From Clostridiales bacterium (lineage in GTDB: Bacteria; Bacillota; Clostridia; Oscillospirales; Oscillospiraceae): a DNA stretch of 12,141 bases. This document shows, one piece after another, positions 1 to 10,185 of this stretch. The notes under the pieces are model-generated. The model worked only from the letters and a program-made list of their open reading frames with translations, made no database searches and had not been told where the DNA came from. The stretch lies in NCBI GenBank assembly GCA_003525905.1, contig DQIA01000063.1, forward strand, positions 1-12,141, in the 5' to 3' direction. Numbering within the stretch: the stretch's first letter is position 1; every line of letters starts with the position of its first letter. A program made the position numbers and the translations under genes.

Positions 1-645
1 ATGGTCGGCGACGGCATCAACGATGCCCCCGCCCTGACGCGTGCGGACACCGGCATCGCCATCGGCGCGGGCACGGACGTCGCCATCGACGCGGCGGATG
101 TTGTGCTCATGAAGAGCCGTCTGCTCGACGTCCCGGCTGCCATCCGCCTGAGCCGCGCCACGCTGCGCAATATCCACGAGAACCTGTTCTGGGCATTTTT
201 CTACAATGTCATCGGCATCCCGCTTGCCGCCGGTGCGTGGATCCACCTGCTCGGCTGGGAGATGAACCCGATGTTCGGCGCGGCGGCGATGAGCCTTTCG
301 AGCTTCTGCGTCGTGACGAACGCCCTGCGCCTGAACCTGTTCCGCATCCGCAGCACGAAGCATGACCACAAGCGGAAGAACCACGCAAAGCAGACCGTTG
401 CAAAAACGGCTGAAGATCATAAGGAAAACAAGGAGGAAACATCCATGGAAAAGACGATGAAGATCGAAGGTATGATGTGCGGTCACTGCGAGGCCCGCGT
501 GAAGAAGTGCCTCGAGGCCCTGCCGGGCGTGGAAAAGGCCGAGGTCAGTCATGTCAGCGGCACGGCCGTCCTGACGCTGTCCGCACCGGTCGACGACGCG
601 CTCCTGAAGAAGACCGTCGAGGATCAGGGCTATCAGGTCATCTGA
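1..645 (+). CDS. copA: Cu(I)-exporting P-type ATPase, C-terminal part, with fused C-terminal HMA domain (5' end outside window)
   Basis: This is the 3' third of a copper-exporting P1B ATPase, which pumps Cu(I) out of the cytoplasm using ATP; the rest lies left of the window, so position 1 is not the start. Residues of the visible fragment: the P-domain hinge motif [12 protein letters not shown] is 1-12; the TM7 Cu-site pair Tyr68-Asn69 lies in the FFYNVIGIP stretch; the TM8 M-x-x-S-S signature is Met97/Ser100/Ser101. Together these are the Cu(I)-type (P1B-1) ligands. Residues 116-148 form a charged, His-containing linker. Residues 149-214 are a heavy-metal-associated domain with the MMCGHC metal loop (Cys160, Cys163). 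HMA domains usually sit at the N-terminus of CopA, so this one is at the unusual end. A strong terminator follows the stop codon. Copper specificity is inferred from the motifs and is fairly sure. Confidence 0.93.
445..645 (+). CDS. Possible separately translated CopZ-like copper chaperone inside the copA 3' end
   Basis: An in-frame ATG at 445 lies 8 nt after a perfect AGGAGG (431-436), an ideal ribosome binding site inside the ATPase reading frame. Initiation here would give a 66-residue protein consisting only of the HMA domain, with its MMCGHC metal loop at residues 10-15, close to the length of free CopZ chaperones (about 68-70 aa). CopZ delivers Cu(I) to CopA in the cytoplasm. Two readings are possible: the site is used and one mRNA makes both the fused pump and the free chaperone, or a former copZ gene became fused to copA by loss of the pump's stop codon and the site is a relic. 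The Shine-Dalgarno and frame are seen directly; use of the site is inference. Confidence 0.45.
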
Positions 646-651
646 ATCCGG

Positions 652-694
652 AAAAATACTGCCGCAGGGGTTTGCTCCTGCGGCAGTATTTTTT
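652..694 (+). terminator. Rho-independent terminator after copA
   Basis: A 17-bp perfect stem (652-668 with 677-693) has an 8-nt loop. The GC-rich core CTGCCGCAGG/CCTGCGGCAG is followed by a T run (689-694), and the A run on the left arm makes the structure usable in both directions. It begins only 6 nt after the copA stop codon and so ends the copper-pump transcript. Confidence 0.95.
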
Positions 695-5076: not shown

Positions 5077-5396
5077 GGAGAAACGACTGCGCGCACCCTG
5101 TAGGGGAGCGGACAGCCGGACCCGGCGTAGCGCTTGCGATTCGTACAGGCTATCGTCAAAACAGCGAACGCCTCCAAGTTTGTCATTGCGAGGCCCCAGC
5201 GGGGCCGTGGCAATCTCGGGAAGGCACTGCCGATGCGAACCAGCTGCCGATAAAATGGTATGCACCGATTGCGTCTGTAGCGGCGCTCAGCGAGCGCCAT
5301 GCAGACCGGCAGTACTTGCAGCATCGATTCTATGGCATAAGGCTGCCGGATTTGTCATTGCAAGAAGGCGCGGCGATAAGAACGGAGGTATCCTTC
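5077..5396. other. Gene-free 320-bp interval built mainly of repeats
   Basis: It holds a TGTAGGGGAG 10-mer (5099-5108) that recurs at 12121-12130, a short unexplained piece (5109-5179) that includes CGATTCGTACA, also found in repeat copy A, the composite repeat at 5180-5361, and the ribosome site of the next gene. No clear terminator or consensus promoter was found. The open frame that runs from 5316 into the next gene is not coding. Confidence 0.6.
5180..5361 (+). repeat. Composite intergenic repeat, copy B (182 bp, plus orientation)
   Basis: It has TTGTCATTGC at both ends (5180-5189, 5352-5361) as direct repeats. The first 47 bases are identical to the solo copy at 6070-6116 and include a GGCCCC-AGC-GGGGCC hairpin. 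Bases 5251-5287 are identical to copy A, and a second hairpin GGCGCTCAGCGAGCGCC lies at 5282-5298. It is inverted relative to copy A. The downstream gene begins 35 nt after its end. Confidence 0.82.
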
Positions 5397-6050: not shown

Positions 6051-6069
6051 ATCGGAAACGGCCCCCAGA

Positions 6070-6116
6070 TTGTCATTGCGAGGCCCCAGCGGGGCCGTGG
6101 CAATCTCGGGAAGGCA
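6070..6116 (+). repeat. Solo 47-bp copy of the composite repeat's left part (copy C)
   Basis: These 47 bases are identical to 5180-5226, from TTGTCATTGC through GGGAAGGCA, including the GGCCCC-AGC-GGGGCC hairpin. The remaining 135 bp of the full element and its second TTGTCATTGC are absent. The similarity stops abruptly at 6117, which suggests the left part is itself a mobile or recombining module. Confidence 0.85.
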
Positions 6117-6205
6117 GTTACGTTTTTGACGTCAACCCGCGCAGCTCGGCAGTGCCGCACCGGGTCTGACAGCCGCACTCCTGCAAGCGAAATTGCAGAA
6201 CATGT

Positions 6206-6254: not shown

Positions 6255-7439
6255 TCAGTTCTCCGAGACATTCAGCACATCGGCCAGCGAGGTATCCTCA
6301 AAATAGGTGTTTGCGTTATAGAGGAACAGCACGTCCGTGACCTGCTCGCGGGAGATGACGGACTCGACGTTGTCATAATAATACCGCGGATCGATGAGAA
6401 TGATGTGGTCGTAATAGGGATAGAGGAACTGCATGAGGCAGTTGGCGTAGGAGTCCTTGAACAGCAGCAGCGTCTTGCCGGTTTCGGCCGTCGTATAGAC
6501 GTCCACGCGGGGGTAGTTGCCGCCGAAGAACACGGTGTATTTGTCCTTCTGGTCCAGCGCGCTGCGGTCGTAGATCGTGGCGGACGTCTCTGCGGCATCG
6601 CCGTAGGAGACGTAGTATTCGATGTCCGTCTGCGGGACATACAGCTCCACGGTGTCATAGGCGGCGTGGCTGCCGCTGCGGGAGGCCAGCGTGCCCTCGA
6701 ACGTGGTGGAGACGGTATAGGTGTCGTAATTCTGAACGGGCTGCGGGATGCCGAGCTTTTCGGCCATGGCCTCAAAGGCATAGCGCGCGCCGAGGCTCGT
6801 CCAGTGGTGGTCCGTGCGGTAATAGAGCTGCCCGTCCGTGTGGGCGGAAAGCGCGGCGGAGACATTCAGGAACGAGATGCCCTGCAGGCTGCCCGCCAGC
6901 GCGGTCAGGTCGGCGCTCTGGTCGCGGACCGGCGCATTTTTTGGGAGCTTGTCCGCCAGAATGCACGCGGCGTTCGGAATGACGGCCATGTTCAGCCGCA
7001 GGTCCGTGTGGCGCGCGGCAAAGGCATTGATGGCCTCCACATTGCGGCTGTCCTGCGGCGGATCGGCGGGCGGCTCCATGAGATAGTCGTCGCTGCAGAG
7101 GTAGACGCCGTTGGATTCCTTTTGCCCCGTGAGCTTCAGGAAGCGGAGCCGCAGCGCGATCCAGAAATCGCGGCCGGCGAACTGATCGGCCGTGTAGGAC
7201 TCCAGATCGGAAAACCAGCTGCCGTCCTTCACGGCGGACCAGCTCAGCTTCGGGAACTGGGCCAGCTTGCGGTTCTCGCTGTCGGAATAGGTGCGGTCCG
7301 GGGTGAGCAGGCTGCCGAGCGTCAGGCAGAGAATGGTCCCGAGCAGGATGACGCTCATAAGAAGGCCCTGCTGCAGCCGGGCGCGCTGGTAGGCAAGCCG
7401 CCGGGAGCGGCGCGGATTTCTGTGTTCTTCCAAAACCAT
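6255..7439 (-). CDS. DHHW-family protein, AlgJ/AlgX-like extracytoplasmic acyltransferase
   Basis: This 394-aa protein has a basic N-terminus, one membrane helix (about 27-45) and a large outer domain. The family-defining DHHW is at residues 210-213 (YYRTDHHWTSLGARYAF), and KDSYAN at 328-333 offers the serine. In AlgJ/AlgX the DxHW Asp and His plus a later Ser form the catalytic triad, so Asp210, His212 and Ser330 are the likely equivalents. Such proteins take acetyl groups handed over by an MBOAT partner and place them on a surface polysaccharide. It is the last gene of the four-gene operon, 9 nt after MBOAT. Start choice is unsettled: GGAGG is only 2 nt before this ATG but an ideal 8 nt before the TTG at codon 3. 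The family call is firm; the polymer is unknown. Confidence 0.88.
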   Translation of the reverse strand: MVLEEHRNPRRSRRLAYQRARLQQGLLMSVILLGTILCLTLGSLLTPDRTYSDSENRKLAQFPKLSWSAVKDGSWFSDLESYTADQFAGRDFWIALRLRFLKLTGQKESNGVYLCSDDYLMEPPADPPQDSRNVEAINAFAARHTDLRLNMAVIPNAACILADKLPKNAPVRDQSADLTALAGSLQGISFLNVSAALSAHTDGQLYYRTDHHWTSLGARYAFEAMAEKLGIPQPVQNYDTYTVSTTFEGTLASRSGSHAAYDTVELYVPQTDIEYYVSYGDAAETSATIYDRSALDQKDKYTVFFGGNYPRVDVYTTAETGKTLLLFKDSYANCLMQFLYPYYDHIILIDPRYYYDNVESVISREQVTDVLFLYNANTYFEDTSLADVLNVSEN

Positions 7440-7448
7440 CGCCTCCGA

Positions 7449-8849
7449 TCAGAACTGGAAATACAGGAAGGTGGAATAGGTGTCGTTCATCATCAGGGCG
7501 ATGCACAACAGCAGCAGCGCCAGGAACAGCACCACGGAGAAGGCCTGCCAGGCCTTATTGCGGCGCAGCAGATTGGTGCCCACATGCGAGACGACGGGGA
7601 ACGAGCCGATCGCGCCCACGAGCAGCAGGGGCCAGCAGCCTGCCAGATAATACTTCGCCGTGGCGTCGACGAGCGCACTGCCGCTGCCGAACATCCGCCC
7701 GATCCAGCCGAAGGCCGCGGCGGGCGAGGACGAGAAGAAGAACACCCAGCCGATGAGCACGAGCAGCAGCGTCAGCACATGGCGCAGCAGGCCGGGCAGG
7801 TGCTCCAGCACACGGCGCAGCACGAACTTTTCGAGGATGAGCAGCACGCCGTAATAAACGCCCCAGAGCAGGAACGTCCAGTTTGCGCCGTGCCAGATGC
7901 CGGTCAGCAGCCAGACGAGCAGCAGGTTCGCGATGGTGCGTACCGTCCCGGCGCGGCTGCCGCCGCAGGGAATGTAGACGTAGTCGCGGAACCACGCGCC
8001 GAGCGAGATATGCCAGCGCCGCCAGAATTCCGTGATGCTCTGCGAGACATAGGGATAGTCAAAATTCTTGCCGAAGCGGAAGCCGAACATCGAGGCAAGG
8101 CCGATGGCCATATCCGAATAGCCGCTGAAGTCAAAGTAGAGCATCAGCGCATAGCACACCGCTCCGAGCCACGCGCTCAGCGTGGAAAGCTGCGTCATCG
8201 GCAGGGCGGAGAGTGCGTAGAACGTTGTGCCGAGCGTGTTGGCCAGCAGGACCTTTTTTGCAAGGCCGATGAGGAACAGACGCGCGCCCGAGCCGAAGCC
8301 CTCGCGCGTGACGGGGTGGTCGCGCAGCTGCGGCTCCATCTCGGCATACTGCACGATGGGGCCGGAGACGAGTTTCGGGAAGAACGTGACATACAGGCTG
8401 AAGTCCAGCACATTGCGCGCAGCGGGCGCGCGGTCGCGGTAGACGTCGAACAGATAGGACAGCAGCGAGAACGTGAAGAACGACACGCCGATGGGCATCG
8501 GCAGCTCCCTCGCACGCAGCGCCGTGCCGAGCAGGGCGTTGAGATTGTCCACAAGGAAGCCGTAGTATTTGAAGAAGCCCAGCAGCAGAAGATTCACGAG
8601 CACGGACGAGACGAGCACGAACCGCCCGCTCCGGCCGCGCGCTTTCTGAAGCGCCAGCTCACGGCCCGCGAAATAGTGGAACGCGATGTCCAGCACCATG
8701 AGAACGAGATATTCCGGCGTCCCCCAGGCGAAGAACACGAGGCTGCACACAACGAGGGCGGCGTTTTTCAGCCGCTTCGGCAGCACAAAATACAGGATGA
8801 GGCTGACGGGCAGGAATACGAACGGGAAGACGAGTGTACTGAATGCCAT
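7449..8849 (-). CDS. MBOAT-family membrane O-acyltransferase (AlgI/PatA-like)
   Basis: This 466-aa polytopic membrane protein moves acyl (usually acetyl) groups from a cytoplasmic donor across the membrane to extracytoplasmic acceptor proteins. It is full length for the AlgI/DltB group. Visible family marks in order: YFDFSGYSDMAIG (238-250), EFWRRWHISLGAWFRDYVYI with His280 (274-293), and the catalytic GIWHGANW with the invariant His320 (317-324). About ten hydrophobic segments surround them. A dlt origin is unlikely because no dltA, dltC or dltD is nearby; the DHHW and SGNH genes beside it point to polysaccharide or peptidoglycan O-acetylation. Its ribosome site AAGGAGGGG overlaps the TAA of the preceding gene, so translation is probably coupled. 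Confidence 0.93.
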   Translation of the reverse strand: MAFSTLVFPFVFLPVSLILYFVLPKRLKNAALVVCSLVFFAWGTPEYLVLMVLDIAFHYFAGRELALQKARGRSGRFVLVSSVLVNLLLLGFFKYYGFLVDNLNALLGTALRARELPMPIGVSFFTFSLLSYLFDVYRDRAPAARNVLDFSLYVTFFPKLVSGPIVQYAEMEPQLRDHPVTREGFGSGARLFLIGLAKKVLLANTLGTTFYALSALPMTQLSTLSAWLGAVCYALMLYFDFSGYSDMAIGLASMFGFRFGKNFDYPYVSQSITEFWRRWHISLGAWFRDYVYIPCGGSRAGTVRTIANLLLVWLLTGIWHGANWTFLLWGVYYGVLLILEKFVLRRVLEHLPGLLRHVLTLLLVLIGWVFFFSSSPAAAFGWIGRMFGSGSALVDATAKYYLAGCWPLLLVGAIGSFPVVSHVGTNLLRRNKAWQAFSVVLFLALLLLCIALMMNDTYSTFLYFQF

Positions 8850-8861
8850 AGCTTCCCCTCC

Positions 8862-9347
8862 TTACAGCGCGCCGCGGAACGCCTGCTGCACGGCAGCGGC
8901 GTCCTTATGGACGACGAACAGAACGTAGTTGCCCCGGATATCCAGAATGGAATGATTCGTCAGCAGGTCATACTGCTCCAGGCCGTAGCCGTCGAAGCTG
9001 GTCTTCTGCGTTTCGAGCCGGGCCTCCACGGCGGCGCGGACAGCCTCCTGCTGCGACGTATCGCGCAGCTTGAGCAGCAGAAGCTCCTCGGCCTCCATGT
9101 TTGTCTGCGGGTAATAGAGCAGGCAGCCGTCAAAATCGGACGGATTCAGGCCGTACAGGCGCTTGACCATCTGCACGCTGCCCTCCTGCAGGGCGCTCAG
9201 GTCGATGCTCGCCGTGACGGCGGAGGCCACGTCCTCAAAGGCGGCCGAGCTGACCGGCTCCTGCCGGAAGCTCACCACAAGGAACACGACGGCAAGCCCC
9301 ACGCACAGCCAGCGCAGCAGCTCAAGCAGGATCGTTTTCTGTTTCAT
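8862..9347 (-). CDS. DUF4358 membrane-anchored protein
   Basis: This 161-aa protein has an N-terminal anchor helix (10-27) followed by a DUF4358 domain (about 35-155) outside the membrane, recognisable from the VKRLYGLNPSDFDG, TNMEAEELLLLKL and GNYVLFVV blocks. The function of the family is unknown. The ATG at 9347 was chosen because GGAGG sits 10 nt upstream; the ATG at 9356 is only 1 nt from it. The start lies inside the end of the SGNH gene (26-bp overlap) and the stop overlaps the MBOAT ribosome site, so it is locked into the acyltransferase operon. From that position I infer a structural or regulatory part in acyl transfer at the cell surface. Confidence 0.87.
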   Translation of the reverse strand: MKQKTILLELLRWLCVGLAVVFLVVSFRQEPVSSAAFEDVASAVTASIDLSALQEGSVQMVKRLYGLNPSDFDGCLLYYPQTNMEAEELLLLKLRDTSQQEAVRAAVEARLETQKTSFDGYGLEQYDLLTNHSILDIRGNYVLFVVHKDAAAVQQAFRGAL

Positions 9348-10185
9348 TTGTCGCATCCTCCGCTTCTGCGGGGCTGTCCAGCCCGGCAAGGATCAGATTG
9401 GCAGCCCAATAGGGGTAGAATTCCGGGCGGACGTGGATGCCGTCCGGCTGCCAGAGATCGGCATAGGTCTGGCAGATCTCGGTATTATCCGCAAAGGGAA
9501 TGCCGTTTTCGGCGCAGGCCGCGCCGACGGCCTCGCTCCATTCGGGGATATTGCGCCATTTCGAGCTCTTCTCAAAAGCGGGGTCCTGCGCGGGCAGGAT
9601 GGAGCTGACGACGACCGTCACGCCGGGCAGGGCCTCCTTCAGGTCGGCGACGACCTGCAGCAGCTCTGCGACATACTCCTCCTTTGTGTCCCAATAGCCA
9701 ATGCTGATGTCGTTCAGACCGTAGCACAGGTAGACATAGTCCGGCTGCAGAGCGCGGATGTCGTCCATGTGCGCGGCGACGTCGCGGATGGTGTTGCCGC
9801 CGTCCGCCAGCACGCGGCTCTTTTCCAGAAAATCGAAGTAATAGAAGCCGACGGCGCGGGAATCGCCGAGGATGACGTAGCTGTCGAACATGGACCAGAT
9901 GTCCAGCTCACCGCTCGTGATTTTTGCAACGAGGGCATCGCGCTCCTCCTTCTTCTGCTGGGCCAGCAGCTCCGCGCGGCGCTGCTTCTCCCGCTCGCGC
10001 AGCGTTTCGGCGATGGCGGAGGCGTCCTTTGCGGCCGCGCTGTCCAGATAGGCCGTGCCAGCGGCGACGGCCGCGCCCTCCTTCGGGGCGGCGGGCATAC
10101 TGCCGAGCACCCATACCGTGAGAAGTACGGCGCACAGCAGCGTCAGGATCCACGGCATCAGGCCGCGGCTTTGTCTTTGTTTCAT
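9322..10185 (-). CDS. Membrane-anchored SGNH/GDSL-family hydrolase or acyltransferase
   Basis: This 287-aa first gene of the operon has an N-terminal anchor (about 10-29), then a charged Ala/Glu/Arg/Gln-rich helix, probably coiled coil (55-85), holding an outer SGNH domain (about 100-270). All four blocks are present: GDSRAVG with nucleophile Ser109, Gly130 in DGGN, Asn158 in YGLND, and DGIH with Asp248 and His251. SGNH proteins next to MBOAT genes either transfer acetyl groups to glycans (as PatB does) or remove them. The C-terminal tail (271-287) is acidic and short. The ATG at 10185 has AGGAG 8 nt upstream, and a near-consensus promoter lies about 55 nt before it. Transfer versus hydrolysis cannot be told from the motifs. 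Confidence 0.9.
   Translation of the reverse strand: MKQRQSRGLMPWILTLLCAVLLTVWVLGSMPAAPKEGAAVAAGTAYLDSAAAKDASAIAETLREREKQRRAELLAQQKKEERDALVAKITSGELDIWSMFDSYVILGDSRAVGFYYFDFLEKSRVLADGGNTIRDVAAHMDDIRALQPDYVYLCYGLNDISIGYWDTKEEYVAELLQVVADLKEALPGVTVVVSSILPAQDPAFEKSSKWRNIPEWSEAVGAACAENGIPFADNTEICQTYADLWQPDGIHVRPEFYPYWAANLILAGLDSPAEAEDATNETENDPA

Follow-up and report, generated by a model that had tools for sequence, protein, structure and literature searches.

A putative internal start in copA that may yield a free CopZ-type copper chaperone

The copA 3′ end and its nested HMA domain

The window analyzed here is the whole 12,141-nucleotide stretch of contig DQIA01000063.1, from a Clostridiales bacterium. 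It opens inside copA, the gene for a Cu P1B ATPase that bears an HMA domain at its C-terminus; the 3′ part of this gene (1..645, +) is in a frame already open at base 1, the contig ends before the 5′ part, and the last 214 codons are present, followed by a TGA stop (643-645). Profile searches with this fragment matched TIGR01511 (E 2e-43) and HMA (E 3.6e-14), although TIGR01511 and other whole-ATPase models stayed under their cut-offs owing to this truncation. Read from the translation, the ATPase ends with NALRLN (319-336, +) and is joined to the HMA domain by a 36-residue linker (337..444, +) that is hypervariable among relatives. Direct reading of the linker's end identified a conserved internal Shine-Dalgarno (SD) sequence, AAGGAGG (430..436, +), with a duplex energy of -11.2 kcal/mol; of the 1698 in-frame ATGs that served as controls within the ATPase portions of the first set of genes, 5 reached -11. 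Its AGGAGG (431-436) is separated by an 8-nt spacer (437-444) from an ATG in the copA frame (445..447, +), confirming the initial annotation, which had reported a perfect AGGAGG 8 nt before an in-frame ATG at the boundary between linker and HMA domain.

This ATG is the start of a predicted nested gene in the copA frame (445..645, +) that would encode a free 66-residue CopZ-type chaperone. The junction Met is residue 149 of 214, the Pfam HMA match spans residues 152-211, and the metal-binding motif CGHC, within GMMCGHC, is encoded at 478..489 (+). Just past the stop codon, a hairpin with a U-run (652..694, +) is the probable terminator of the copA transcript (fold energy of 640-700, -34.7 kcal/mol; z -7.0), and was missed by a simple consensus terminator scan. 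We considered an internal promoter rather than an internal start; a simple consensus scan of 1-1000 found no sigma-70-like site on either strand, though one may have escaped it. Stable or unusually open mRNA structure at the window's start region was likewise rejected, as folding there did not go beyond that of shuffles (z -0.3).

The HMA domain of the nested frame scored 57 bits against Pfam HMA (cut-off 24.8), and its 66 residues were modeled as a complete HMA fold, beta-alpha-beta-beta-alpha-beta, with a mean pLDDT of 95.8 and the first strand beginning at residue 2. The best PDB fold match of the model was the CopZ metallochaperone 6ff2 (TM 0.93), and C12, H14 and C15 were invariant in an alignment of 24 rows. 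CopZ and Atx1-like copper chaperones have the same features: one HMA domain, roughly 65-70 residues long, that contains a CxxC motif and adopts this fold. The initial annotation had called the product a complete CopZ; the model bears out its completeness, while the domain scored below the NCBIfam CopZ cut-offs (61.4 of 85 for NF047957 and 55.2 of 91 for NF033795), so we keep to the label CopZ-type.

Elsewhere in the window, a dispersed repeat, ATTGCGAGG...GGCAATCTCGGGAAGGCA, occurs in both orientations (763-855, 826-855, 5167-5298 and 6057-6125), mostly between genes on this contig, in copies of up to 93 nt at 85%. At 2765-2985, inverted repeats of 37 nt (81% complementary) delimit a stretch of 221 nt that may be a small, gene-less mobile element. 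Frames for a GDSL hydrolase, a DUF4358 protein, an MBOAT acyltransferase and a DHHW/AlgX-like protein adjoin one another at 6255-10185 (-) and perhaps serve surface O-acylation.

Recurrence of the putative junction start in fused copA genes

We looked for the site in three sets of copA loci, scoring an in-frame ATG 3-14 residues before a GMxCxxC-type motif as a junction ATG and calculating SD energies with one anti-SD sequence applied to all species (strong, -8 kcal/mol or lower). Where several ATGs fell in range, the one with the best SD was kept, which gives a small bias towards finding a site. The likeness set comprised 98 records: the best 80 of 584 loci found when each species was represented by one genome, 17 loci from viral contigs and the window itself. 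A C-terminally fused HMA domain was present in 81 of these, and 74 of the 81 had the junction ATG, with an SD of -8 or lower in 68 and of -5.9 or lower in all 74. Spacing between SD and ATG ranged from 5 to 11 nt, with a mode of 8 nt (51 of 74).

For the second set, we searched 148 genomes drawn evenly from Clostridia, the class of Schaedlerella, using the ATPase core alone (115 residues), and obtained matches in 131; 130 of the 138 matches were read, two of them had no ATPase frame by motif, and 128 loci were left, 57 fused and 71 unfused. Junction ATGs were found in 54 of the 57 fused genes, 46 of them with a strong SD, and one further gene had a strong GTG site. The third set, searched in the same way, consisted of 30 loci from each of three further classes, to which Megasphaera, a Coriobacteriaceae MAG and a Treponema MAG belong (90 of 54, 44 and 39 matches); 85 of these loci were readable and five lacked an ATPase frame. 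We named the classes from the titles of the records and the established taxonomy of these organisms. Fused genes accounted for 14 of 30, 11 of 26 and 12 of 29 loci, respectively. The junction ATG was present in 36 of these 37, with a strong SD in 24 (5, 7 and 12 by class); energies no higher than -5.5 were found in 12, 11 and 12.

The three sets together, in which a few genomes occur twice, hold 175 fused copA loci, and 164 of them have the junction ATG. Going by record titles, carriers of the site include Ruminococcus (among them R. albus and R. flavefaciens), Blautia, Gemmiger (G. formicilis) and Faecalibacterium. Because some genomes are in two sets (e.g. L006/L102, L013/L116 and L026/L303), we removed identical sites, leaving 159. 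These have a mean SD energy of -9.2 kcal/mol; 135 are strong, 157 reach -5.5 or lower, and 24 are weaker than -8. Among fused Negativicutes loci, 9 of 14 have an SD weaker than -8. Three genes that our first motif had classed as unfused (L036, L068 and L074) proved on reading to be fused and to carry the site, and were counted as fused; L066, near a contig end with no HMA domain after its SD, and L073, without a C-terminal HMA domain, were left out of the fused count.

Eleven of the 175 loci had no ATG by our rule (L013, L116, L070, L019, L034, L039, L056, L081, L117, L127 and L252). Two of these, L013 and L116, are one genome, in which a GTG follows AAAGGAGG and the SD is strong; in L070, whose C-terminus carries two HMA domains, an ATG site precedes the last one (SD -11.8), and L039 keeps the SD (-9.5) with no start codon behind it. 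Two other loci have the ATG with little SD, none at L148 (-1.7) and a weak one at L257 (-4.8). Multiple C-terminal HMA domains, two or three per CopA, were seen at L246, L070, L020 and L081; the ATG site precedes the last domain in L246 as in L070 and the first in L020, and none was seen in L081.

Acetobacterium returned 20 loci, all outside the 175 except L351, which is the genome of L178; 13 of the 20 are fused. Twelve of the genes (L334, L336, L340, L342-L344 and L346-L351) were passed over as unfused by a motif requiring Gly before Met; reading showed a fused C-terminal HMA domain in which D, E or Q replaces the usual Gly (xMSCQHC). The junction ATG follows AGAAGGA in 11 of the 12 and AGCAGGA in L336, and 12 of 13 Acetobacterium sites have an SD weaker than -8, that of L351 being moderate (-6.2). 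Directly behind 11 of these 12 copAs lies a frame that we recognized, by eye only, as CsoR-like.

We also searched for other HMA frames in the genomes of seven loci lacking the start or its SD (L019, L034, L039, L056, L117, L127 and L148), in those of 53 other fused Clostridia and in two unfused ones, counting as free any HMA frame shorter than 150 residues, with matches listed down to E 2.6e-10. Among the matches listed, a free HMA frame was present in 5 of the 7 start-less genomes versus 11 of the 47 whose site is strong (Fisher p 0.02, ignoring kinship), and at 1e-11 in 4 of 7 versus 4 of 47 (p 0.006), a comparison of small numbers and mostly of MAGs that may be incomplete. The free frame of L039 lies directly behind copA, and no free frame was among the matches listed for L019 and L034. 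Six genomes with an SD between -5.5 and -8 stood outside the comparison, two of them with a free HMA frame. Free frames were also found in the genomes of L107 and L073, whose CopAs have no C-terminal HMA domain, and the sole HMA frame shown for L109 is 261 residues long.

Fusion history and coding constraint

Separate copZ-like frames on the same strand were present within the read stretch at 36 of the 71 unfused Clostridia loci, 16-206 nt downstream of the copA stop in 35 and upstream in the other. With the best start taken, as for fused sites, the starts of these separate genes have a mean SD energy of -10.1 kcal/mol, strong in 32 of 36. At L161, an unfused locus whose neighbors on the tree are fused, copZ lies 28 nt past the copA stop behind AAAGGAGGTG.

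This arrangement raises the possibility that copA and copZ have fused recently and repeatedly, leaving SD and ATG as functionless relics. Besides the 35 loci with a similarly strong copZ start just downstream, the phylogeny lends this some weight: a tree built from the cores of 203 CopAs, 133 of them fused and 70 unfused, needs 10 changes between the two states, and its starred branches force at least four. However, the same tree needs 58 changes when labels are shuffled, and one group of 94 rows with a local support of 97 contains 92 fused genes; such clustering of fused genes makes a fresh relic unlikely. Leftovers would also be expected to decay. Across the 159 sites, the linkers (8-110 residues in the 157 measured) have a nucleotide identity of 31.7%, against 29.7% when shuffled, yet the SD stretch has 57.6% against 43.9%. 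Over the same sites, identity is 56.5% in the 30 nt that directly follow the ATG, and in the core it averages 71% over the first 60 residues and 34% at third codon positions. Judged by these alignments, a functionless site would be unlikely to persist under such sequence change, and we regard a relic as a very unlikely explanation of the site. The initial annotation had offered the copA-copZ fusion relic as its alternative; fusion may well explain the origin of the site, but not its upkeep in lineages whose linkers are saturated.

Still less probable is a programmed pause, in which the SD-like stretch would aid folding of the last membrane segment or of the HMA domain and no new protein would be made. 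SD-like stretches within genes have been proposed to act as brakes that slow ribosomes, an idea that is disputed. Against it, the stretch lies 5-11 nt before the ATG and keeps its place where the domain begins, however long the linker is, and pausing has no need of an ATG, in place of which one genome has a GTG behind AAAGGAGG.

To measure what coding alone would produce, we compared the 159 junctions with several controls. Strong SDs precede 77 of 3057 other in-frame ATGs of the same genes, compared with the 135 of 159 at junctions. Synonymous shuffles following each gene's own codon usage (200 rounds) gave a mean of 51 strong sites and a maximum of 64, and permutation of the upstream codons (200 rounds) a mean of 7 and a maximum of 14. 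The class draws by themselves (85 sites) behaved similarly, with 67 strong sites versus at most 35 in synonymous shuffles and 9 in permutations, and strong SDs at 32 of 1462 other ATGs. The SD occupies all three codon frames (116, 33 and 8 sites), and residues -5 to -3 form 72 different tripeptides, KEE being the commonest (19 of 159). In CopAs with two N-terminal HMA domains, the second offers the same domain inside an open frame; an ATG was near in 5 of 38, and an SD of -5.5 or lower was found in none. The mean fold energy around the junction start was -1.6 kcal/mol, compared with -9.6 in random windows of the same genes; A-rich linkers may by themselves account for this nearly unfolded region.

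By these comparisons, coding does not account for the conservation of the SD, because synonymous shuffles yield no more than 64 strong sites and the SD occupies every codon frame. Least credible of all, for the same reasons, is that the pump needs a Lys/Glu-rich peptide and a junction Met with the SD as by-product, even though KEE is the commonest tripeptide and synonymous shuffles retain a mean of 51 strong sites. These junctions bear the mark expected of an internal in-frame start: an SD and start codon, placed where a domain begins, whose conservation exceeds what coding requires. The initial annotation had foreseen that homologs would either keep the AGGAGG and ATG beyond what the protein needs or have a stop codon and separate copZ instead; the first is borne out in fused genes and the second in about half of the unfused Clostridia loci.

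A probable two-protein copA and its known counterparts

Together our results suggest that copA is very probably a one-gene, two-protein unit that produces both a pump with a tethered HMA domain and, by internal initiation, a free CopZ-type chaperone. Comparison among genomes supports this main reading of the initial annotation through the site itself, its conservation relative to controls, its likeness to the starts of separate copZ genes and the completeness of the domain. Some observations weigh against it, namely the additional small HMA frame in 11 of the 47 strong-site genomes and the lack of a listed one in 2 of the 7 start-less genomes, the weak SDs, the several changes between fused and unfused states, the scores below the NCBIfam CopZ cut-offs, the effect that A-rich linkers have on structure by themselves and, in the window, a start region as structured as its shuffles. 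Under the proposed mechanism, ribosomes starting at the copA start would make the pump with its tethered C-terminal copper-binding HMA domain, while others would bind AAGGAGG in the linker and initiate in the cell at ATG 445, making the HMA domain alone; the short product would be stable and, as a free 66-residue CopZ-type protein, would act as a chaperone carrying Cu(I) to the pump. As for the order of events, the unit most likely originated in a copA-copZ operon from which the stop codon was lost and in which selection retained the ribosome site of copZ.

We think it likely, with considerable confidence, that in many Clostridia, Negativicutes, Coriobacteriia and Spirochaetia the chaperone is not missing but nested in copA through an old fusion, that two start sites on one mRNA set the ratio of free to tethered domain, that this is a second solution independent of frameshifting in E. 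coli, and that gene callers allowing one start per stop would miss it. Ordinary gene calling would pass over a copZ that lies in frame within copA, and such a gene could be an answer to the missing CopZ of gut Clostridiales: one survey describes CopZ as apparently absent from most of their abundant genera (PMC4938975). A literature search by title and opening of abstract, with most subscription journals outside its reach, found no paper on an internal start in copA among the matches listed. If our reading is true, the ability to make both pump and free chaperone out of a single gene evolved at least twice, through different translational mechanisms. It also suggests that the C-terminal domains of other gene fusions may possess separate starts.

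The proposed unit has several known counterparts. The unfused Clostridia copA-copZ pairs have the same gene order, domain family and similar SD strength before copZ, but a stop codon and 16-206 nt between the genes, where the fused locus has one continuous open frame. The pump itself resembles CopA of Archaeoglobus fulgidus, likewise a Cu ATPase bearing a C-terminal HMA domain; that domain, chain 3fry, has been studied as part of the pump. That protein's C-terminal metal-binding domain appears in the reference list of PMC7558416. That a segment of a larger protein is also made by itself, from a start codon in frame within the gene, is predicted here and has been described for Cas11, made by internal initiation inside cas8 and encoded by a separate gene in other lineages (PMC13199841); these are CRISPR subunits, unrelated to CopA.

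In outcome, the proposed unit parallels CopA(Z) of E. coli, where programmed frameshifting lets a single copA supply the pump along with an unattached HMA copper chaperone (Meydan 2017 and Drees 2017, as cited in PMC9548414). In that organism, translation is cut short by a -1 frameshift, which releases the N-terminal domain. Unlike CopA(Z), the product proposed here would arise from an internal start in frame 0, without a frameshift, and would be the C-terminal domain.
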